64,000 nucleotides of DNA. Origin: Oceaniferula marina (lineage in GTDB: Bacteria > Verrucomicrobiota > Verrucomicrobiia > Verrucomicrobiales > Akkermansiaceae). The notes under the pieces were generated by a model that made no database searches, was not told the origin of the DNA, and saw only the letters and a program-made list of their open reading frames with translations. The stretch is taken from assembly GCF_013391475.1 (NCBI RefSeq), contig NZ_JACBAZ010000001.1:248001-312000 (forward strand), in the 5' to 3' direction. Positions 39,666-55,654 of this stretch are shown here, piece after piece. Both the position numbers and the translations under genes were made by a program. Each line of letters starts with the position of its first letter. The stretch's first letter is position 1.

Positions 39666-43955
<4,290 letters not shown>

Positions 43956-43988: not shown

Positions 43989-45452
43989 ATGAGCTCAACT
44001 AAAAAGCATATTGCATGCTTGGGCCTGCTTTTGATTGGGGTGAACACGGCTTTTACCAGCGATAGTCGCCCGAATATTCTGTGGCTCTTTTCCGACGACC
44101 ACGCATTTCAGGCGATCGGGGCCTACGGCGGACGACTTCAGTCGTCCAACCTGACGCCTAACCTCGATTCCATCGCCCGCGAAGGGATGCGCTTCGACAA
44201 GTGCTACGTGGGCAACTCCATCTGCGCCCCTAGTCGCGCCACGCTGCTGACGGGCAAGCACAGCCACTTGAACGGAAAAATTGATAACCTCGGTCCGTTC
44301 AACCATGATCAGCAGCAATTCCAGAAAATTCTCCGTCAGAACGGATATCAGACGGCGATGATCGGTAAAATCCACCTGCACGGCAAGATGCAGGGGTTTG
44401 ATTACTGGGAAGTGCTACCGGGTCAGGGACGCTATGAGAATCCGATATTCATCTCTGAATCGGGCAAAAAAACATACGAAGGCCACTCGACCGATGTGAT
44501 CACCGATCGGGCGCTCCAATGGCTTAAAACCGGCCGTGATGAAACGAAGCCGTTCATGGCGATGGTTCACTACAAAGCGCCGCATCGCAACTGGATCCCT
44601 GCCGAACGGTTCCGTAAGAAATTTGAGACCATGAGTTTCCCTGAGCCGGACACTCTTTTTGATGACTACAAAGGCCGTGGTACCGCAGCGCGCAAACAGG
44701 ATCTGTCTATTGCGAAAACTATGACGATGGGTCATGACTTTAAGGTAGACCGTTGGGCGTATCGAAAAAAGGAACTGCTTGAATCCGGACTGATCGGCAA
44801 AGAGCTGGTACGTGCCAAATACCAAGCCTACATGCGCGATTATCTCGCCTGTATTGCAGGGGTTGATGAAAATGTAGGACGGTTATTAGATTACCTGAAG
44901 GAGAGCGGACTGGATAAAAACACCGTCGTCATGTACTCGGCGGACCAGGGCTTCTATCTGGGCGAACACGGCTGGTTCGATAAACGCTTTATGTACGAGG
45001 AATCGTTCCGCACCCCGCTGCTGGCCAAATGGCCGGACGTCATTCAGCCCGGATCCGTCAACACCGATCTGGTTCAGAATATCGACTTTGCCGAGACCTT
45101 CCTTGACCTCGCCGGCATCGGGGCGCCCGCCGATATGCAGGGCGAGAGCATCGTCCCCCTGCTCAAAGGCAATACTCCTGCCGACTGGCGTGACAGCCTC
45201 TATTACCACTATTACGAATATCCCGGCTGCCATAGCGTCCGCCGTCACGAGGGCGTAGCGACCCAACGTTATAAACTAATCCGCTTCTACGGGCAGGATG
45301 TACCGAACGCCGAGGAGTGGGAGCTGTACGATTTGGAGCGCGACCCGCGCGAAATGAAAAACGAGTATAATAATCCCGAGTACAAAGCAGTAATGCAAAC
45401 AATGAAAAAAAAGCTCACCGCACTGATTAAAGAATACAAAGTGCCCCAGTAA
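43989..45452 (+). CDS. Secreted type I sulfatase
   Basis: A 487-aa sulfatase with signal peptide ([20 protein letters not shown]). The metal site is [20 protein letters not shown] and the formylglycine motif is C79[14 protein letters not shown]. It is the same subgroup as the sulfatase at 11606 but comes from a clearly different sequence background, with more GC-rich codon choice like the rest of 39780-55084. It lies between the GH2 and the double GH3 gene. Confidence 0.9.
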
Positions 45453-45497: not shown

Positions 45498-48400
45498 ATG
45501 CTTATAAAAAAAATAGGATGTTTCATCTTGGCGACAACGCTAGTGACCTGTTCACAGGCAATGGACAACAACGTGGCCGATACGATCAGCGACGAAAAAG
45601 CAGAGCAGTTGGCGGATTCTATCCTGGCACAGCTTACGCTCAAAGACAAAATCCGGCTCTGTCATGGTAGCGGAACGTTTACCCTAGGCGCTATCCCGCG
45701 CGTCGGCATTACGAAAGAGTTTAAGATGAGCGACAACTCCAGCACGGTCCGCCCGGATGTGGAGCGTCTCAGCTGGAAAAACGGGAATGAAACCGCAACC
45801 GCCTTCCCCTCCCTGTCCGCACTGGGGGCAACGTGGGATCGCGAGCTGGTCTATCAATTTGGCGATGCACTGGGCAAGGAGGCGCGTGCCCGTGGTATGG
45901 ATATGCAGCTTGGGCCGGGCGTAAACATCCACCGCACGCCCGTCTGCGGACGGAACTGGGAATATTTCGGGGAAGATCCGGCACACGCAGCCAAATTGGT
46001 TGTGCCGTATGTGAAAGCTGTTCAGAAAAATGGCGTCGCGAGTACGGTTAAGCACTTTGTAGCGAACAACCAGGAGCTGGCACGTCACTCCTGTAGCTCC
46101 GATCCGGACGAACGCACCCTGCGCGAGATTTATCTGCCGGCGTTTAAAGCGGCTATTTGTGAAGGCGGCTCGCTCGCCATCATGAACGGCTACAATAAGT
46201 TCCGCGGCGAAAAAGCCAGCCACAGCGACTACCTGAACAACAAAATCCTCAAGGGCGAATGGGGATTCAAAGGGCTCGTTGTATCTGACTGGGGTGGATT
46301 GACCGACACGCTGGGAGGCGCGCTGGGCGGCACCGATATCGAAATGAGCATGGGCGCGAATATTCGCCACTTCAAACAACCGCTGCTCGATGCAGTCAAA
46401 AACGGCTCGGTTCCTGAAGAAATCCTCGACGACAAAGTGAAGCGCATCCTCTATGTCATGGCGAAAACACAGTTTATCGGAAATGACGGCACCCGCGAAA
46501 AAGGTGCGTTGGAAACCCCGGAACACACCGAACTGGCTCGCGTCGTTGCCGAACAGGCCGTCACCCTGCTGAAAAACGACAAGAACGTTCTGCCGTTAAA
46601 GAGCGATGCGATTAAAAACCTGCTGGTAATCGGCGACAACGCCATCCGCAAACACTGCCCGGGCGGCGGAAGCGCGACGGCCAACCCAAAATATGAAGTC
46701 AGCCCGCTGGAAGGAATCAAAAATCGGGTCGGAAGCGGAGTGGATGTACAGTTCCGTAATGTAAAAGACAGCGACGGCAACATCGCACAGATTCCTGACG
46801 TATGGATCAAAACACTGGATCCGAATTCAAAACGCATAGGTCTGGGTCAGCCAGCATTCAAAGCTGAATACTTCAACAACACCAATCTGGCAGGAACGCC
46901 GGTGCATGTCCGCTACGACAAAGAGATCAACCTCAAAGGCGGTAAAGCATCGTTCCCACAAGGGGTCAGAAAAGATAATATTTCCGTGCGCTGGACGGCA
47001 AAAATCAGCCCGGTACAGAGTGGCGACTACACCTTTGGCGCAATGGTCGATGACGGGGTTCGCATCTTTATCAACAATCAGCCGATTGTGCAAAAATGGC
47101 AGGCAGGCGGAACGCGTCTACTCAAAGGCGAAAGCATTCGTCTGGAAAAAGGCAAAGAGTACGACCTGCGCGTCGAATATCTTGAATATACCGGCGCGGC
47201 CGTTTGCGAGTTCGGCATGATCGAAGAGGCTGTGTACGACTTCACTCAGCTAGCGAAAGAAGCCGCGGCAGCCGATGCGGTCATCTACTTCACCGGCAAC
47301 CAGCACTACGGCTCTAAGAATGTCGAAACGGAGGCTGTAGACCGTAAAACTATGAACCTGCTGAAGTGCGACAATCAGGCTATTGAGGAAGTACTAAAGG
47401 CAAAGCCGGAAACCGTCATTGTCAACCTGAGCGGTGCGGCAGTGGAAATGCCTTGGATTGATCAGGCTGCCACGCTGGTGCAGTACTATTTCAGCGGACA
47501 GGAAGGCGGCAACGCCATCGCCAATGTGTTGTTCGGCAACGTCAATCCGTCCGGCAAACTCACCTTCACCATGCCGAAAAAACTGTCCGACTCACCGGCG
47601 CACGCACTGAACGACTACAACGACAAAGCGGTGGAATATAAAGAAGGCGTCTTCGTGGGCTACCGTTGGTACGATGCCAAAAAGATTGATCCACTCTTCC
47701 CGTTCGGGCACGGCCTGAGCTACACCACCTTTAAAGTCGGCAAACCACAACTATCCAAATCGTCGATCAAAGAAGGCGCGCCGGTCACGGTTAAAGTTAA
47801 TGTGACCAACACCGGCAAAGTGGCTGGCGCAGAAGTGGTTCAGCTCTACATCGCCGCACCGAAAAGCGATATCGAACGCCCCATTCGCGAGCTGAAAGAT
47901 TTCGGGAAAGTGTTCCTCCAGCCGGGCGAAACCCAAGCCGTAACCATGCAGATTGAATGGCAGGATCTGGCCTACTGGGACATGGAGCGCAGCCACTGGA
48001 ACGTGGTTCCCGGCGCTTATCAAATTGAAATCGGCACATCGTCACGCGACATCAAACACCGCGCAACGCTGTCCGCCGGAAAAACGACGACCGCTGAAGT
48101 GTCCGATAAAGACGCCATGGATTTGGCTAACCAGATTCTCAAACAGCTGACACTGGAAGAAAAAGTATCGCTGACCCACGGTAGCGGCACCTTTACGGTC
48201 ACCAATATTCCGCGTGTCGGCATCACGCACGAATTCACCATGAGCGATAACTCCAGCACCGTGGCCACGGACATCGAACGCAACAGTTTTCGCGGAACTC
48301 CGGTGGGGAACAAGCAGACGGCAACGGCGTTCCCATCCATGTCCGCACTGGGTGCGACGTGGGATCGTGACCTGGCCCACCGACTTGCGGGCGCACTCGG

Positions 48401-50594
48401 TCGAGAGGGACGGTTCCGAGGGAAAAGCATGCAGTTGGGGCCGGGCGCAAATATTCACCGCACTCCGCTCTGCGGGCGGAACTGGGAATACTTCGGCGAA
48501 GATCCGGCGCATTCCGCCAAAATGGTGGTTCCGTATGTAAAAGGTATTCAGGCAGAAAATGTAGCCGCTACGGTCAAACACTATGTCGGCAACAATTCAG
48601 AATGGGGCCGCATGGGTGTTGATGTGGATCTCGACGAACGAACCTTGCGCGAAATTTATCTTCCCGCCTTCGAAGCCGCCGTTAAAGAAGGTGGCGCGCT
48701 AGCGATGATGAGCGGGTTTAACAAGGTGAATGGCGAATATTGCAGTCACAGCGACTACCTCAACAACCAGATTTTGAAAAAAGAATGGGGCTTCAAGGGG
48801 CTCGTTGTCACCGACTGGGGCGGCGTGCACGGGACGGTCGCAGGGGCGCTCGGCGGTACGGATCTTGAAATGGCTGCGGGAGCGGGCATCCGCTTCTTTA
48901 AACAGCCACTACTCGACGCCGTTAAAAATGGAACGGTTCCGGAATCGGTCGTCGACGACAAAGCGCGTCGTGTTCTCTATGTCATGGCGAAAACCAAATT
49001 TATCGGCAACCACACCGATCGTGAACCGGGTATCTATGAAACGCCGGGGCATACGGCTATCGCCCTTAAAGTGGCCGAAGAATCAGTCACGCTGCTCAAG
49101 AACGAGAACCATATTCTGCCGTTAAATCCCGATGCGATGAAAACCGTGCTGGTCCTCGGCGACAACGCGATTCACAAACACTGCTCAGGGGGCGGAAGCG
49201 CGCGGGCACGACCGAAATATGAAATCAGCCCGCTGGAAGGAATTAAGAATCTGCTCGGCGATGGCGTTGAGGTCAAATTCCGCAATGTCCAAGGCGCGGA
49301 AGATCAGGTCAAGCAGATCCCGGAAACCTGGATCCGCACACTGGACCCGACGGCCAATCGGACCGGACTGGGACAGCCCGCCTTCAAGGTTGAATATTTC
49401 AACAATACGGAGCTCTCAGGAGCACCCGTTCACGTCGGTTACGACAAAAATATCCAGTTCAACAAAGACAAAACACCGGTTCCAGAAGGCGTGCGGCGCA
49501 AGAATATGTCGATTCGCTGGACCGCAACCATCAGTCCGAACCAGAGCGGCGAGTATCTCCTCGGCGCAGCGATCGACGACGGCGTCCGCATTTTCGTGAA
49601 CAATAAACTCGTGGCTGAGAACTGGAAAGCTGGCGGACGGCGTATCGTCAAAGGCGCCATCTATCTGGATAAAAACAAGGAATATGAGCTGCGCGTGGAG
49701 TACCTCGAATTTGCCGGAGCCGCGATTTGTGAGTTCGGCATGATCCAAGATGCCGTGCGCGATTTCAGTGCCCTAGCCACCGAAGCAGCAAATGCCGACG
49801 CCGTCATCTACTTCACCGGAAACAACCACATTTATGTCACCCCCGTGATTGAGAGTGAAGGATGTGACCGTAAAAGCATGGATCTGCACAAGCATGACGA
49901 TCAGGCGATTGCCACGGTGCTGAAAGCTCGACCCGATATGGTCATCGTCAACCTCAGCGGATCGCCAGTCGCTATGCCATGGATCGACCAGGCCAAGGCA
50001 TTGGTTCAGTATTACTTCAGCGGGCAGGAAGGCGGCAACGCCATCGCCAACGTACTCTTCGGCAAAGTGAATCCGTCTGGAAAACTGACGTTTACCATCC
50101 CGAAAAAACTGTCCGATTCTCCCGCACATGCACTGGATGATTACAATGACAAGTACATGAAATACAAAGAGGGTGTCTTCGTGGGCTATCGCTGGTTTGA
50201 TGCCAAAAACATCGAGCCACAATTCCCGTTCGGACACGGACTGAGCTACACCACCTTCAAGGTCGAGAAACCGAACCTCTCCCGCGAACAAGGAAACGTG
50301 ATAGTGAAAGCTTCTGTAACCAACACCGGCAAAGTCGCCGGAGCGGAAGTCGTTCAGCTTTACGTTGCGCCGCCAAAAGGCGAAGTCGAGCGCCCAGTGC
50401 GCGAGTTGAAAGATTTCGGCAAAGTGTTCCTGCAACCGGGCGAAACCAAAACCGTCGAAATGCAGCTCACAGAACGCGATTTCTCCTACTGGGACATAGC
50501 AACTCGCGACTGGAAAGCCACCCGTGGAACCTACCGCATCGAGATCGGCACTTCCTCGCGCAACATCAAGCAAACGCGCACCTTTAAATATTAA
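45498..50594 (+). CDS. Tandem double GH3 glycosidase (GH3-PA14 x 2)
   Basis: A 1698-aa exported protein with signal (GCFILATTLVTCSQAM). Two full GH3 units follow head to tail: unit 1 about residues 27-865, unit 2 about 870-1698. Each has the barrel nucleophile (D264 in VVSDWGG; D1106 in VVTDWGG), a PA14 domain inserted in the second GH3 domain (~448-574 and ~1290-1416), the acid/base region E-x-E/T-x-x-DR (ETEAVDR; ESEGCDR) and a fibronectin III-like end. No signal or start lies at the junction (TTTAEVSDKDAM). Both units look active. GH3 enzymes of this build are retaining beta-glucosidases or beta-xylosidases. A single GH3 is normally 750-900 aa, so the fusion is unusual. Confidence 0.9.
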   Translation: MLIKKIGCFILATTLVTCSQAMDNNVADTISDEKAEQLADSILAQLTLKDKIRLCHGSGTFTLGAIPRVGITKEFKMSDNSSTVRPDVERLSWKNGNETATAFPSLSALGATWDRELVYQFGDALGKEARARGMDMQLGPGVNIHRTPVCGRNWEYFGEDPAHAAKLVVPYVKAVQKNGVASTVKHFVANNQELARHSCSSDPDERTLREIYLPAFKAAICEGGSLAIMNGYNKFRGEKASHSDYLNNKILKGEWGFKGLVVSDWGGLTDTLGGALGGTDIEMSMGANIRHFKQPLLDAVKNGSVPEEILDDKVKRILYVMAKTQFIGNDGTREKGALETPEHTELARVVAEQAVTLLKNDKNVLPLKSDAIKNLLVIGDNAIRKHCPGGGSATANPKYEVSPLEGIKNRVGSGVDVQFRNVKDSDGNIAQIPDVWIKTLDPNSKRIGLGQPAFKAEYFNNTNLAGTPVHVRYDKEINLKGGKASFPQGVRKDNISVRWTAKISPVQSGDYTFGAMVDDGVRIFINNQPIVQKWQAGGTRLLKGESIRLEKGKEYDLRVEYLEYTGAAVCEFGMIEEAVYDFTQLAKEAAAADAVIYFTGNQHYGSKNVETEAVDRKTMNLLKCDNQAIEEVLKAKPETVIVNLSGAAVEMPWIDQAATLVQYYFSGQEGGNAIANVLFGNVNPSGKLTFTMPKKLSDSPAHALNDYNDKAVEYKEGVFVGYRWYDAKKIDPLFPFGHGLSYTTFKVGKPQLSKSSIKEGAPVTVKVNVTNTGKVAGAEVVQLYIAAPKSDIERPIRELKDFGKVFLQPGETQAVTMQIEWQDLAYWDMERSHWNVVPGAYQIEIGTSSRDIKHRATLSAGKTTTAEVSDKDAMDLANQILKQLTLEEKVSLTHGSGTFTVTNIPRVGITHEFTMSDNSSTVATDIERNSFRGTPVGNKQTATAFPSMSALGATWDRDLAHRLAGALGREGRFRGKSMQLGPGANIHRTPLCGRNWEYFGEDPAHSAKMVVPYVKGIQAENVAATVKHYVGNNSEWGRMGVDVDLDERTLREIYLPAFEAAVKEGGALAMMSGFNKVNGEYCSHSDYLNNQILKKEWGFKGLVVTDWGGVHGTVAGALGGTDLEMAAGAGIRFFKQPLLDAVKNGTVPESVVDDKARRVLYVMAKTKFIGNHTDREPGIYETPGHTAIALKVAEESVTLLKNENHILPLNPDAMKTVLVLGDNAIHKHCSGGGSARARPKYEISPLEGIKNLLGDGVEVKFRNVQGAEDQVKQIPETWIRTLDPTANRTGLGQPAFKVEYFNNTELSGAPVHVGYDKNIQFNKDKTPVPEGVRRKNMSIRWTATISPNQSGEYLLGAAIDDGVRIFVNNKLVAENWKAGGRRIVKGAIYLDKNKEYELRVEYLEFAGAAICEFGMIQDAVRDFSALATEAANADAVIYFTGNNHIYVTPVIESEGCDRKSMDLHKHDDQAIATVLKARPDMVIVNLSGSPVAMPWIDQAKALVQYYFSGQEGGNAIANVLFGKVNPSGKLTFTIPKKLSDSPAHALDDYNDKYMKYKEGVFVGYRWFDAKNIEPQFPFGHGLSYTTFKVEKPNLSREQGNVIVKASVTNTGKVAGAEVVQLYVAPPKGEVERPVRELKDFGKVFLQPGETKTVEMQLTERDFSYWDIATRDWKATRGTYRIEIGTSSRNIKQTRTFKY

Positions 50595-50610
50595 AAATAA
50601 TCTCCTGCTC

Positions 50611-50642
50611 AATCGCCCTAAAGGCCACGCTGTAGGGCGATT
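50611..50642 (+). terminator. Hairpin after the double GH3 gene
   Basis: A 10-bp stem (AATCGCCCTA with its complement at 50633-50642) and a 12-nt loop, 16 bp beyond the stop codon. There is no T run. An almost identical hairpin follows the next gene (55101-55132), so it belongs to a duplicated segment. Confidence 0.5.
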
Positions 50643-50674
50643 GGGCAAACCCTTAAACTGCGAAAAGAGGTACT

Positions 50675-53600
50675 ATGTTGAACAAAAGCGCAATGATACT
50701 GGCCGGGCTTTGCCTGGCTGGAGCTAGTGTGGCCACCGAAACGAGACCACCCAATGTTATTTTTATTTATGGTGATGATGTCGGTTACGGTGATGTCGGC
50801 GTATATGGCTCCGAAAAAATACCCACGCCGAATATCGACCGACTGGCCAAAGCGGGCATACAATTCCTCGATGGACACTGCACCGCGGCAACATGCACGC
50901 CATCGCGCTTTTCGATGCTGACCGGCCTGTATGGGTTTCGACAGGGAGTCGGCATTCTACCACCGGATGCCCCGCTCTGTATTCCCACCAACATCCTGAC
51001 GCTGCCGAAAATGTTCAAAAAGGCAGGATACGATACAGCAGTCATCGGGAAATGGCACTTAGGACTCGGTCAACAAGGAGTGAAAACCGACTGGAATGCA
51101 GCGGTCAAGCCTGGCCCCCTTGAGATCGGCTTTGATTACTCGTTCCTGCTACCGTCAACCAACGACCGAGTGCCCTGTGTTTACCTTGAAAATCATCATG
51201 TAGTGAATCTGGACCCGAATGATCCACTGTATGTGACGCATGAACCAGTGGCACCTGCTGGTTTTACGGGAACCGTCTATCCGGACGGACGCAAAAATCC
51301 GGAAGCGCAGACCTACTATGCAGCGGATCATCAGCACAGCTGTTCGGTCATCAACGGTATCGGACGCATCGGCTATCAGTGGGGCGGGAAGTCCGCGCTC
51401 TGGAACGATGAAACCATGGCGGATGAATTTGTTAATCAGGCGAAAAAGTACATTGCCGCTAAAAAAGATAAGCCGTTCTTCCTCTATTTCGCCTCGCAGG
51501 ATATCCATGTGCCGCGCGCGCCTCACCCCCGGTTTCAGGGAAAAACATCCCTCGGCAAGCGTGGCGACGCCATGGTGCAGTTTGACTGGGTAACTGGCGA
51601 GATCGTGAAAACGCTTGAAGAACACGGGCTGCGCGAGAATACGATCATCATTTTCTCATCCGATAACGGGCCGGTTTACGACGACGGCTATAAGGATGGA
51701 TCCACGGTTCGCCAATCATCACAAGAGGGAGACCACGGTCACGACGGATCAGGCCCCTACCGAGGCGGCAAATATCAGATCTATGAAGGCGGCACCCGAG
51801 TCCCCTTTATCATCAGCTGGCCTGCGAAAATCAAACCGGGCACCTCGAATGCACTGGTCAATCAAATCGATTTTATCGCATCGTTTGCCGATCTGCTCGA
51901 GGTTGAATTAAAACCAAACGAAGCGGTGGATAGCCGCAACATGCTCAAGGCATTTCTCGGAGACGATCCAATCGGCTTGCCGTTCATGCCCGAGGAGTCC
52001 TTCAGAACCTTAGGACTGAGGCGCGGACCGTGGAAATATGTGACCGGTCATCAGGAGGAGCTCTACAATCTTGAATCGGATATCGGCGAAGCCAACAATG
52101 TGATCGCGCAATATCCGGAAATGGCCTCAATCATGCGTCACACGCTTGGGCGCATCCGGAAAGAGGGACGGATACGTAAGCTTCCTGGCGACATTGAGCT
52201 GCCTGAATATGCTGCCTCAACGGAAGAATCTCACAATCCGGTTGAGCACGCATTCGACGGAAACGAAGCGACGCGCTGGGCCGCAACAGACCGTAAGGCC
52301 GGACACTGGTTGAGAGTTGATTATAAAAAACCGACCGCAGTCTCAGGCGTGCAGATCGTATGGGAACACAGCGATAAAAAATACGGATATATCGTGGAAG
52401 GTTCTGACGACGCTACATCGTGGGAAACACTGGCAGAAGGATATGCCGACACCCATGGCTCAAAACATAACGTCTCTGCCGAAAAGCGCTATTACCGAGT
52501 TAGAACAACCACCGAAGGCCCCTACATTTGGCCAAGTATCCGAAAACTCAATTTCGCAACCGAGCACGCCGAACAGACGGTTGCGGGCGAAGTGTCTGAC
52601 GAACAGGCCATGAAGCTTGCGAACGAAGTGCTCGGCAAACTGACACTGGAAGAAAAGATATCGCTCTGCCACGGCAGCGGAACCTTTACGATCACTAATA
52701 TCCCGCGCGTCGGGATTGAGCGTGAGTTCACGATGGTCGACAACTCCAGCACCGTGGTCGGCGATGTGGCGCGTATGAAATGGGGGACCACCGAGGAAGG
52801 CAAAAAGCAGACCGCCACCGCCTTCCCTTCCCTCTCCGCTGCAGGTGCGACTTGGGACCGTGAGCTGGTTCGGCAATTCGCGGATGCGCTGGGCAAAGAG
52901 GCACGCTTCCGCGGCAAGGATATGCAGCTCGGGCCAGGTGTGAATATTCACCGCACACCGCTCTGCGGCCGCAACTGGGAATACTTCGGCGAAGATCCGG
53001 CCCATGCCGCCAAAATGGTCGTGCCTTACGTTAAAGGGCTACAGCAAAACCATGTCGCTGCGACCGTGAAGCACTTTGCGGCGAACAACTCGGAATGGAA
53101 CCGTTATCGAGTCGACTCGGATCCGGACGAACGCACCCTGCGCGAAATCTACTTCCCCGCCTTCGAGGCCGCCGTCAAAGAAGGCGGCGTACTGGCCGTG
53201 ATGAGCGGCTACAATAAAGTACGCGGTGAATGGTGCAGTCATAGCGACTACCTGAACAACCAGATTCTCAAAAAAGAGTGGGGATTCAAAGGATTAGTGG
53301 TAACCGACTGGGACGGCCTGCACAGCACGATGAAAGGGGCACTCGGCGGCACGGATCTTGAAATGAACATGGGCGCTAATATCCGCTACTTCAAAAAACC
53401 GCTGCTCGAGGCAGTGAAGAACGGAACCATCCCGCAGGCAGTGCTCGACGACAAAGTCCGGCGCGTGCTGTATGTGATGGCGAAAACCAAGTTTATCGGC
53501 ACCCACACCGACCGCGAAAAAGGCGCGTATGAAACACCGGAACACACCGCCATCGCGCGCAAGATCGCTCAGGACGCGATCACCCTACTCAAGAACGAGG

Positions 53601-55084
53601 ATGACGTACTGCCGCTGAACCGCGAGGCAGTAAAAAGCGTTCTCGTCATCGGCGACAATGCCATCCGCAAACAGTGCCCCGGCTGGCACAGCGGTCGCGC
53701 CAACCCTAAACATGAAGTCACCCCGCTCGAAGGAATAAAAGAGCTTCTCGGCGACAACGTGCAGGTGACATTCCGCAACGTAAAAAGCGCGGGCGATCAA
53801 ATTAAACAGCTCCCGGAAACCTGGATTCTAACACAGGATCCGAACTCCAAGCGCGTCGGGTTCGGACAGCCGGCATTTAAAGTTGAATATTTCAACAACA
53901 CCGAACTCACGGGTGCGCCGGTTCATACCGCATACGACAAGCACATCGATTTCAACAAGCGCAAAAAACGGCTCCCGGAAGGGGTGCGCCAAAACAACAT
54001 CTCCATCCGCTGGACCGCAACCATCAGCCCGGATCAGAGCGGAGAATACGTACTCGGCGCCAAAATCGACGACGGGGTGCGCATTTTTGTAGACGGCCAG
54101 CTGGTCGCTGACAACTGGCGGCCCGGTGCAAAACGGATTGCCAAAGGAACGATTCAGCTGGAAAAAGACAAGGAGTATGCCCTGCGCGTGGAATACCTCG
54201 AAATTGCCGGCGACGCGCTCTGCGAGTTTGGGCTGATCGAATCTGCCCAGAGTCTTACCGCGCTGGTTGCGGAAGCGACGCAGTCCGATGCCGTGATCTA
54301 CTTCACCGGAAACAACCACGACATGAGCCAGCCGGTCTGTGAAGGCGAAACGGTCGACCGCAAAAGCATGGCACTCTACCCGCATGACGACCGCGCGATT
54401 GCCGCGCTGCTGAAAGCCAAACCGGATGCCGTTATCGTCAACCTCAGCGGGGTCGCGGTCGCGATGCCGTGGATCGATGAGGCCAAGGCGCTGGTTCAGT
54501 ATTACTTCAGCGGACAGGAAGGCGGCAACGCCATCGCCGACGTGCTCTTCGGTAACGTCAATCCGTCCGGCAAGCTGACGTTTACCATGCCGAAAAAGCT
54601 GTCCGATTCTCCGGCACATGCACTGGATGATTACAATGACAAGTATATGAAATACAAAGAGGGTGTCTTCGTGGGCTACCGCTGGTTTGATGCCAAAAAC
54701 ATCGAGCCACAATTCCCGTTCGGACACGGACTGAGCTACACCACCTTCAAGGTCGGAAAACCGAAACTCTCCCGAGAAAAAGGAAAAGTGATAGTGAAAG
54801 CTTCTGTAACCAACACCGGCAAAGTCGCCGGAGCGGAAGTCGTTCAGCTTTACGTTGCGCCGCCAAAAGGCGAAGTCGAGCGCCCTGTGCGCGAGCTGAA
54901 AGATTTCGGCAAAGTGTTCCTGCAGCCCGGCGAAACCAAAACCGTCGAAATGCAGCTCACAGAACGCGATTTCTCCTACTGGGACATAGCAACTCACGAC
55001 TGGAAAGCCACCCGTGGAACCTACCGCATCGAGATCGGCTCTTCCTCGCGCGACATCAAGCAAACGCGCACCTTTAAATATTAA
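50675..55084 (+). CDS. Sulfatase - F5/8C - GH3 fusion enzyme
   Basis: A 1469-aa exported protein in one open frame (signal KSAMILAGLCLAGASVA). Residues ~25-505: complete type I sulfatase with NVIFIYGDDVGYGDVG and formylglycine motif C74-T-P-S-R. Residues ~507-630: F5/8 type C domain (ATRWAATDRKAGHWLRVDYK, then GYIVEGSDDA). Residues ~638-1469: GH3 with nucleophile D878 (VVTDWDG), inserted PA14 domain (~1062-1188), acid/base region EGETVDR and fibronectin III-like end. It would cleave a sulfate ester and a glycosidic bond of the same glycan. The last ~500 bp are nearly identical to the end of the double GH3 gene. The 80-bp gap before it suggests one operon. Confidence 0.9.
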   Translation: MLNKSAMILAGLCLAGASVATETRPPNVIFIYGDDVGYGDVGVYGSEKIPTPNIDRLAKAGIQFLDGHCTAATCTPSRFSMLTGLYGFRQGVGILPPDAPLCIPTNILTLPKMFKKAGYDTAVIGKWHLGLGQQGVKTDWNAAVKPGPLEIGFDYSFLLPSTNDRVPCVYLENHHVVNLDPNDPLYVTHEPVAPAGFTGTVYPDGRKNPEAQTYYAADHQHSCSVINGIGRIGYQWGGKSALWNDETMADEFVNQAKKYIAAKKDKPFFLYFASQDIHVPRAPHPRFQGKTSLGKRGDAMVQFDWVTGEIVKTLEEHGLRENTIIIFSSDNGPVYDDGYKDGSTVRQSSQEGDHGHDGSGPYRGGKYQIYEGGTRVPFIISWPAKIKPGTSNALVNQIDFIASFADLLEVELKPNEAVDSRNMLKAFLGDDPIGLPFMPEESFRTLGLRRGPWKYVTGHQEELYNLESDIGEANNVIAQYPEMASIMRHTLGRIRKEGRIRKLPGDIELPEYAASTEESHNPVEHAFDGNEATRWAATDRKAGHWLRVDYKKPTAVSGVQIVWEHSDKKYGYIVEGSDDATSWETLAEGYADTHGSKHNVSAEKRYYRVRTTTEGPYIWPSIRKLNFATEHAEQTVAGEVSDEQAMKLANEVLGKLTLEEKISLCHGSGTFTITNIPRVGIEREFTMVDNSSTVVGDVARMKWGTTEEGKKQTATAFPSLSAAGATWDRELVRQFADALGKEARFRGKDMQLGPGVNIHRTPLCGRNWEYFGEDPAHAAKMVVPYVKGLQQNHVAATVKHFAANNSEWNRYRVDSDPDERTLREIYFPAFEAAVKEGGVLAVMSGYNKVRGEWCSHSDYLNNQILKKEWGFKGLVVTDWDGLHSTMKGALGGTDLEMNMGANIRYFKKPLLEAVKNGTIPQAVLDDKVRRVLYVMAKTKFIGTHTDREKGAYETPEHTAIARKIAQDAITLLKNEDDVLPLNREAVKSVLVIGDNAIRKQCPGWHSGRANPKHEVTPLEGIKELLGDNVQVTFRNVKSAGDQIKQLPETWILTQDPNSKRVGFGQPAFKVEYFNNTELTGAPVHTAYDKHIDFNKRKKRLPEGVRQNNISIRWTATISPDQSGEYVLGAKIDDGVRIFVDGQLVADNWRPGAKRIAKGTIQLEKDKEYALRVEYLEIAGDALCEFGLIESAQSLTALVAEATQSDAVIYFTGNNHDMSQPVCEGETVDRKSMALYPHDDRAIAALLKAKPDAVIVNLSGVAVAMPWIDEAKALVQYYFSGQEGGNAIADVLFGNVNPSGKLTFTMPKKLSDSPAHALDDYNDKYMKYKEGVFVGYRWFDAKNIEPQFPFGHGLSYTTFKVGKPKLSREKGKVIVKASVTNTGKVAGAEVVQLYVAPPKGEVERPVRELKDFGKVFLQPGETKTVEMQLTERDFSYWDIATHDWKATRGTYRIEIGSSSRDIKQTRTFKY

Positions 55085-55100
55085 AAATAATCTCCTGCTA

Positions 55101-55132
55101 AATCGCCCTAAAGGCCACACTTTAGGGCGATT
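55101..55132 (+). terminator. Hairpin after the sulfatase-GH3 fusion
   Basis: A 12-bp stem (55101-55112 with 55121-55132) and an 8-nt loop, the counterpart of the hairpin at 50611-50642 at an offset of 4490 bp. Homology to the other copy ends at the hairpin's right edge, where the sulfatase fragment begins. Confidence 0.55.
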
Positions 55133-55135
55133 ACC

Positions 55136-55654
55136 ATACGGGAGTCATTGGGAAGTGGCACCTGGGTCTGGATGAACCGCTCAGGCCAAACAGCCGTGGG
55201 TTTGATTATTTTTTATGGCTTTCTCAACGGTGCTCATTCGTTTACGCATGCTCATAAAAAGTGGGGGAAGCACCCTGAATTGTGGCCGATCTGCCGGAAC
55301 CGTGAACCGTTGGATTACCGAGGGTATCGAGGGTATCGAGGGTATCGAGGTCACACGCCTGGGCGCATGGATACTGGTGCCATCGCTCTGACGGCGGCTC
55401 TTTCATCGATGCCTTACCTGCCAGACGAGGTCTATCGCTGTGCGATCGAAATGTACAAACGGGGGAATCTTCTTTGGGGGGCTTTTGGCTTTTACGATGC
55501 TTTCAACCCCTCCAGAAACTGGGTGGCAAATGCCTATCTTGGGATTGATGTAGGGCCAATTGCTCCCATGATCGAGAACCAACGGACGGGAATGTGCTGG
55601 GCGGTTTTCATGCGCGCTCCTGAAGTGAGAAAGCTGACCCGGCTTATTCAATAG
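55136..55654 (+). pseudogene. Chimeric pseudogene: sulfatase fragment joined to GH144-like C-terminus
   Basis: Bases 55136-55329 are a near-copy of about 30069-30260 in the sulfatase gene at 29651, with an extra T in a T run near 55209-55214 that shifts the frame. A tandem GAGGGTATC triplet (from about 55321) marks the joint. After it, 55350-55654 encodes the C-terminal part of a PF10091/GH144-like protein (WGAFGFYDAFNPSRNWVANA, then IDVGPIAPMIENQRTG) that is unlike either intact copy here. A 168-aa frame from 55148 runs through the joint, but no start signal or export signal makes it a real gene. It is debris of recombination. Confidence 0.82.

Follow-up and report, generated by a model that had tools for sequence, protein, structure and literature searches.

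A predicted exported sulfatase-F5/8C-GH3 fusion protein of Oceaniferula marina that may desulfate and then cleave galactose-type residues

The closest characterised enzyme in design is P36 of Formosa agariphila, which joins an S1_25 sulfatase to a GH78 alpha-L-rhamnosidase in the ulvan pathway (PMC8511951, PMC8360166); there, the residue at the non-reducing end is desulfated and the same residue is then cleaved off by the glycosidase (PMC8511951). Sulfatase-glycosidase fusions also have precedent in the PVC superphylum: Porphyra-associated Planctomycetes reportedly often carry multi-domain sulfatases that include glycoside hydrolase domains, and these are uncharacterised (PMC4807772).

The protein described here is encoded in a 64,000-nucleotide stretch of the Oceaniferula marina genome, hereafter the window. 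It resembles the Planctomycetes proteins in pairing sulfatase and glycoside hydrolase domains, and P36 in carrying a sulfatase and an exo-glycosidase in one chain, but P36 has a different sulfatase subfamily, a different GH family and a different sugar, rhamnose-3-sulfate. An earlier note on this DNA knew of no characterised enzyme with this exact domain order; likewise, no S1_15-F5/8C-GH3 protein is described as characterised in the literature searched, which lay outside most subscription journals, although related fusions have precedent in P36, in the Planctomycetes and in a second verrucomicrobial protein described below. The fusion is an unusual new domain combination of an established design, desulfate first and then cut, and it is likely to be functional. 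Our best explanation, to which we give a probability of about 0.55, is an exported bifunctional exo-enzyme that would carry out exo 6-O-desulfation and then remove the exposed galactose-type residue, encoded by a gene assembled in its own locus.

Domain architecture and genomic context

The gene is a single uninterrupted open reading frame on the forward strand (50675-55084, 1,469 residues, no internal stop), with a Shine-Dalgarno-like AGAGG upstream of its ATG. Pfam recognises Sulfatase at residues 26-409 (2.5e-57), F5_F8_type_C at 513-613 (2.2e-14; 54.1 bits, above the cut-off of 28.2), Glyco_hydro_3, the GH3 N domain, at 712-933 (1.9e-41), Glyco_hydro_3_C at 969-1355 (3.2e-52) with PA14 inserted at 1065-1180 (2.7e-22), and an Fn3-like domain at 1388-1458 (2.2e-28). 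That a sulfatase, an F5/8C domain and a GH3-PA14 enzyme share one polypeptide, as had been claimed from the open frame, is thus borne out. The gene is laid out as follows:

50675-50737, forward strand: predicted Sec (type I) signal peptide without a lipobox, residues 1-21, read by eye from the sequence
50744-52189, forward strand: S1 sulfatase of S1_15 type, residues 24-505, from domain search and sequence and fold comparison
52190-52558, forward strand: F5/8 type C (CBM32-like) domain, residues 506-628, from domain search
52559-55081, forward strand: GH3, with both N and C domains and a PA14 insertion (53867-54214), followed by the Fn3-like domain (54836-55048)
55082-55140, forward strand: 3' hairpin of the fusion gene, -21.7 kcal/mol, a near copy of the hairpin 3' of the GH3-GH3 gene

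Upstream lie the following features:

39666-43955, forward strand: GH2 LacZ-type beta-galactosidase with NPCBM and a C-terminal F5/8C domain
43989-45452, forward strand: S1 sulfatase carrying SGSH_C, which shares 47% identity with the sulfatase of the second verrucomicrobial fusion
45498-50594, forward strand: GH3-PA14-Fn3 twice in one 1,698-residue protein (GH3-1 and GH3-2), both with intact catalytic residues
50592-50650, forward strand: hairpin of -29.4 kcal/mol, at the end of the GH3-GH3 gene and ahead of the fusion gene

Among the products of the locus as a whole are GH95, GH2 and several sulfatases; genes further upstream specify an L-fuconolactonase-like protein, which scores below its cut-off, and catabolic functions of uronate type. 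Its target may be a sulfated, galactose-containing and probably fucosylated polysaccharide.

The sulfatase half

The formylglycine motif C74-T-P-S-R and the S1 metal and catalytic motifs GDD, GKWHLG and SDNG are all present in alignment. FGE-family proteins are encoded in the same genome, as are well over 100 sulfatase domains. Other composite proteins of this genome include two sulfatase domains in one 1,948-residue chain (C4, L066 736-6582) and a SASA-type esterase fused to a sulfatase (C2, L067 868-5478; 1,536 residues).

The solved structures closest in sequence are S1_15 enzymes, and a fold search with the predicted sulfatase model returned S1_15 chains at ranks 1-8 (6s20/BT3333, 9bas, 9bau, 9bav, 7oze/BT1624, 7p26/BT4631 and 7ozc/BT3109), the next match, S1_19, being weaker by about eight orders of magnitude in E-value. 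The structure models, built with window sequences alone as alignment, are both weak: that of the sulfatase and F5/8C domain has a mean pLDDT of 56 and is confident in its core only, so that the sequence result carries the weight of the placement, and that of the F5/8C domain and GH3 has a mean of 39.5; inter-domain geometry was read from neither. Sequence and fold comparison together indicate that the fusion sulfatase belongs with subfamily S1_15. Its described relatives, S1_15A and S1_15B of Pseudoalteromonas distincta U2A (PDB 9bas, 9bau/9bav; PMC12549532) and BT1624, BT3333, BT3109 and BT4631, are 42-46% identical to it in fold alignments and share the residues discussed next, but they are standalone enzymes.

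S1_15 enzymes are exo-acting on 6-sulfated Gal or GalNAc (PMC10154612; PMC12549532), and one source describes them as reading O3 and O4 through a His and an Asp/Arg dyad and calls their discrimination of galacto from gluco configuration absolute (PMC10154612). In the fusion, N-D164-R165-V-P and H221 fall in the same alignment columns as conserved residues of BT1624 and BT3333, giving the galacto-recognition triad D164/R165/H221; the assignment follows the DR and H columns, which are invariant, and not published residue numbers. The S1_15 placement together with the kept triad indicates Gal6S or GalNAc6S over glucose or xylose substrates, and the predicted specificity is for D-galacto-configured 6-sulfates. 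Of the sulfated glucosides, galactosides and xylosides that the earlier note had put forward as substrates to try, the galacto type is therefore the likely one, and the other two are unlikely for the sulfatase half.

In the Pseudoalteromonas enzymes a Trp-bearing helix sets whether monosaccharides or oligosaccharides gain access to the pocket (PMC12549532). Compared with BT3333 and BT1624 in alignment, the fusion sulfatase lacks about 17 residues of the cap loop that follows W-K-Y, and the same stretch is short in many of its Verrucomicrobiota relatives. The pocket may thus be open and fit oligosaccharide ends.

The GH3 half

The GH3 half resembles Kluyveromyces marxianus BglI (KmBglI, PDB 3abz) in its GH3 N and C domains, PA14 insert, Fn3-like tail and catalytic pair: D878, in TDW, and E1225 align with D225 and E590 of KmBglI, which we take to be its nucleophile and acid/base. 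The KH and GRN-EYF motifs are also intact, and with C74 they confirm that the key residues of both enzymes are in place, as first noticed from the translation. KmBglI differs in being a standalone beta-glucosidase with a canonical DGPNGIR, where the fusion has DNSSTVV. In GH3 beta-glucosidases, the Asp and Arg of the DGPxGxR motif are in contact with the sugar at subsite -1. The motif is absent from the fusion GH3, with its Arg lost there and in GH3-2 and kept in GH3-1 and most relatives, and an altered sugar specificity is therefore plausible. The NCBIfam equivalogs for GH3 exo-alpha-L-arabinopyranosidase, beta-glucosidase and beta-xylosidase score 502, 435 and 421 bits against cut-offs of 1300, 1300 and 1250, all far under, and we know of no characterised GH3 of the fusion's branch.

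The lost Arg, given that GH3-1 and most relatives keep it, could also mean that one half is a pseudoenzyme or a low-activity relic that acts as a binding module. We regard this as improbable, as the nucleophile, acid/base, KH and GRN/EYF motifs of the GH3 are intact, and so are the motif and triad of the sulfatase.

Origin of the modules

Each module of the fusion has relatives nearby or in the family. Its F5/8C domain shares 54% identity, across 121 residues, with the one at the C-terminus of the GH2 enzyme, the next in the genome reaching 33%; given this sharing, it may bind a galactose-type ligand. Its GH3 is 77% identical to GH3-2 and 68% to GH3-1; in the tree the three group with full support, fusion GH3 and GH3-2 being sisters at 96/93. 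Over the last ~500 coding nucleotides (50100-50650 compared with 54600-55140, 3' hairpins included) the fusion and GH3-2 are 93-98% identical, against 60-80% over the remainder, with four-fold-site differences dropping from about 0.4-0.7 to 0.00-0.24, and the near-identical tract extends into the 3' hairpin. This shared tract is best read as a recent conversion or duplication. The sulfatase is family-typical: its closest relative in the genome is 67% identical, and standalone homologues of about 62-69% identity, which end near residue 500, occur in congeners and other genera. The gene would have been built within the locus from a family-typical S1_15 gene, the F5/8C domain of the GH2 enzyme and GH3-2 of the neighbouring gene, presumably with locus parts moving into the fusion and not out of it.

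It had been suspected that a sequencing or assembly joint lay within 52150-52600. This region coincides with the domain borders, at which standalone sulfatase relatives end (about residue 500), the F5/8C domain spans 506-628 and GH3 begins at 629, and nothing in it points to a frameshift. An artefact of assembly or of mixed strains would suit a draft genome of 88 contigs, an exact architecture found nowhere else in the genomes searched and a 3' tract so close to the neighbouring gene; it is nonetheless very improbable, with the gene inside a 1.2-Mb contig and the identities to own-genome relatives (54%, 77% and 67% for the F5/8C, GH3 and sulfatase modules) too low for reads to be mis-joined. 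The fusion looks real and locally built.

Both halves may instead be active on different residues of one polysaccharide, or on different oligosaccharides; the fusion would then secure no more than their joint export, a 1:1 dosage and the use of one binding module by both. In the neighbouring protein GH3-2 has GH3-1 as its partner, so GH3 modules here swap partners; the F5/8C domain may simply have been re-used; and known GH3 activities, as in the NCBIfam matches, are mostly those of beta-glucosidases, xylosidases and arabinosidases. We consider this possible, though S1_15 and GH3 enzymes both typically act as exo-enzymes at non-reducing ends and the characterised precedent, P36, works consecutively on one residue.

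Distribution of the architecture

No second S1_15-F5/8C-GH3 architecture was found in 260 genomes of the family, queried with the GH3 half or with F5/8C-GH3, and the fusion is not conserved in congeners. Nor did the architecture turn up in overlapping samples at order (387 genomes), class (384) and phylum level (388), where scoring covered the top two or three candidates of each genome. A GH3 profile scan of a genome contig collection gave two remote Firmicutes loci only, which were uninformative, and a search of plasmid DNA gave short patches only. The possibility that the fusion is common and already characterised finds no backing in these genome samples or in the literature searched.

An analogous protein is found in another family of Verrucomicrobiota (genome G592, L062 2831-7408): its 1,525 residues comprise sulfatase (SGSH_C), CBM35/6, GH3, PA14 and Fn3 domains, in the same order of sulfatase, binding domain and GH3. 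Its sulfatase is of another subfamily, 47% identical to the product of 43989-45452 and not S1_15, and its CBM differs too; its GH3 sits far from that of the window in the tree. The different subfamily and the distance between the GH3 domains indicate that this fusion arose independently.

In two further genomes the pair occurs as separate genes. An unfused GH3, 73% identical (CBM 60%), has a sulfatase gene 12 bp upstream in G461, whose long open frame was rejected as a fusion, being separate adjacent genes; in G647 the sulfatase gene lies 68 bp upstream of the GH3. A sulfatase homologue lies near the GH3 in only about five of the 41 neighbourhoods examined, and a general association of the two genes was rejected as a rule. 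Large open frames in four other genomes (G053, G047, G024 and G040) combine a sulfatase with GHL15, with LamG or with no further recognised domain, and not with GH3. One of these, in G053 (L029 1918-6000), holds a pair of sulfatase domains and, after them, a GHL15 putative glycosidase, all in a single frame of at least 1,361 residues. Separately, a HAD-family hydrolase is fused to a GH3-PA14 enzyme in a 1,099-residue protein (G506, L064 779-4078).

Discussion

In the reading that we prefer, C74 would be matured to formylglycine and the S1_15-type sulfatase would strip the 6-O-sulfate from a non-reducing-end Gal6S or GalNAc6S. The F5/8C domain would tether the protein to the galactan-type chain to which the co-encoded GH2 beta-galactosidase also binds through its related domain. 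The GH3, acting as a retaining exo-hydrolase through D878 and E1225, would then release the terminal residue that has lost its sulfate. Such stepwise desulfation and glycoside cleavage had been proposed in the earlier note; it is the best-supported reading and has its precedent in P36, while the substrate, the order of the steps and the action of both halves on the same residue are, we infer, its probable details. We count in its favour the domain matches and catalytic residues, the S1_15 placement, the kinship of the F5/8C and GH3 modules with their neighbours, the GH95/GH2/sulfatase locus, the FGE proteins, the independent fusion, the adjacent genes of G461 and G647, and P36. Against it stand the fusion of GH3-2, sister of the fusion GH3, to another GH3, so that the partner of the fusion GH3 may be incidental; the small share of GH3 neighbourhoods with a sulfatase, so that the pairing is not general; the lack of conservation in congeners; the far sub-threshold NCBIfam scores, with no characterised GH3 of this branch known to us; and the replaced Arg, which makes the GH3 specificity uncertain. 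More tentatively, the GH3 could have had its -1 subsite rebuilt and be a beta-D-galactosidase or some comparable exo-hydrolase of galacto type. The chain would then be self-contained, first desulfating and then cleaving 6-sulfated galactans in exo fashion, and a product of module shuffling in its own locus.

The fusion offers a directly testable case in which a single protein would couple exo-desulfation to glycoside cleavage on sulfated glycans of galacto configuration, and a convergent sulfatase-CBM-GH3 fusion occurs elsewhere in the phylum. Its modules, traceable to relatives nearby or in the family, suggest that degradation loci may build such enzymes from their own parts.
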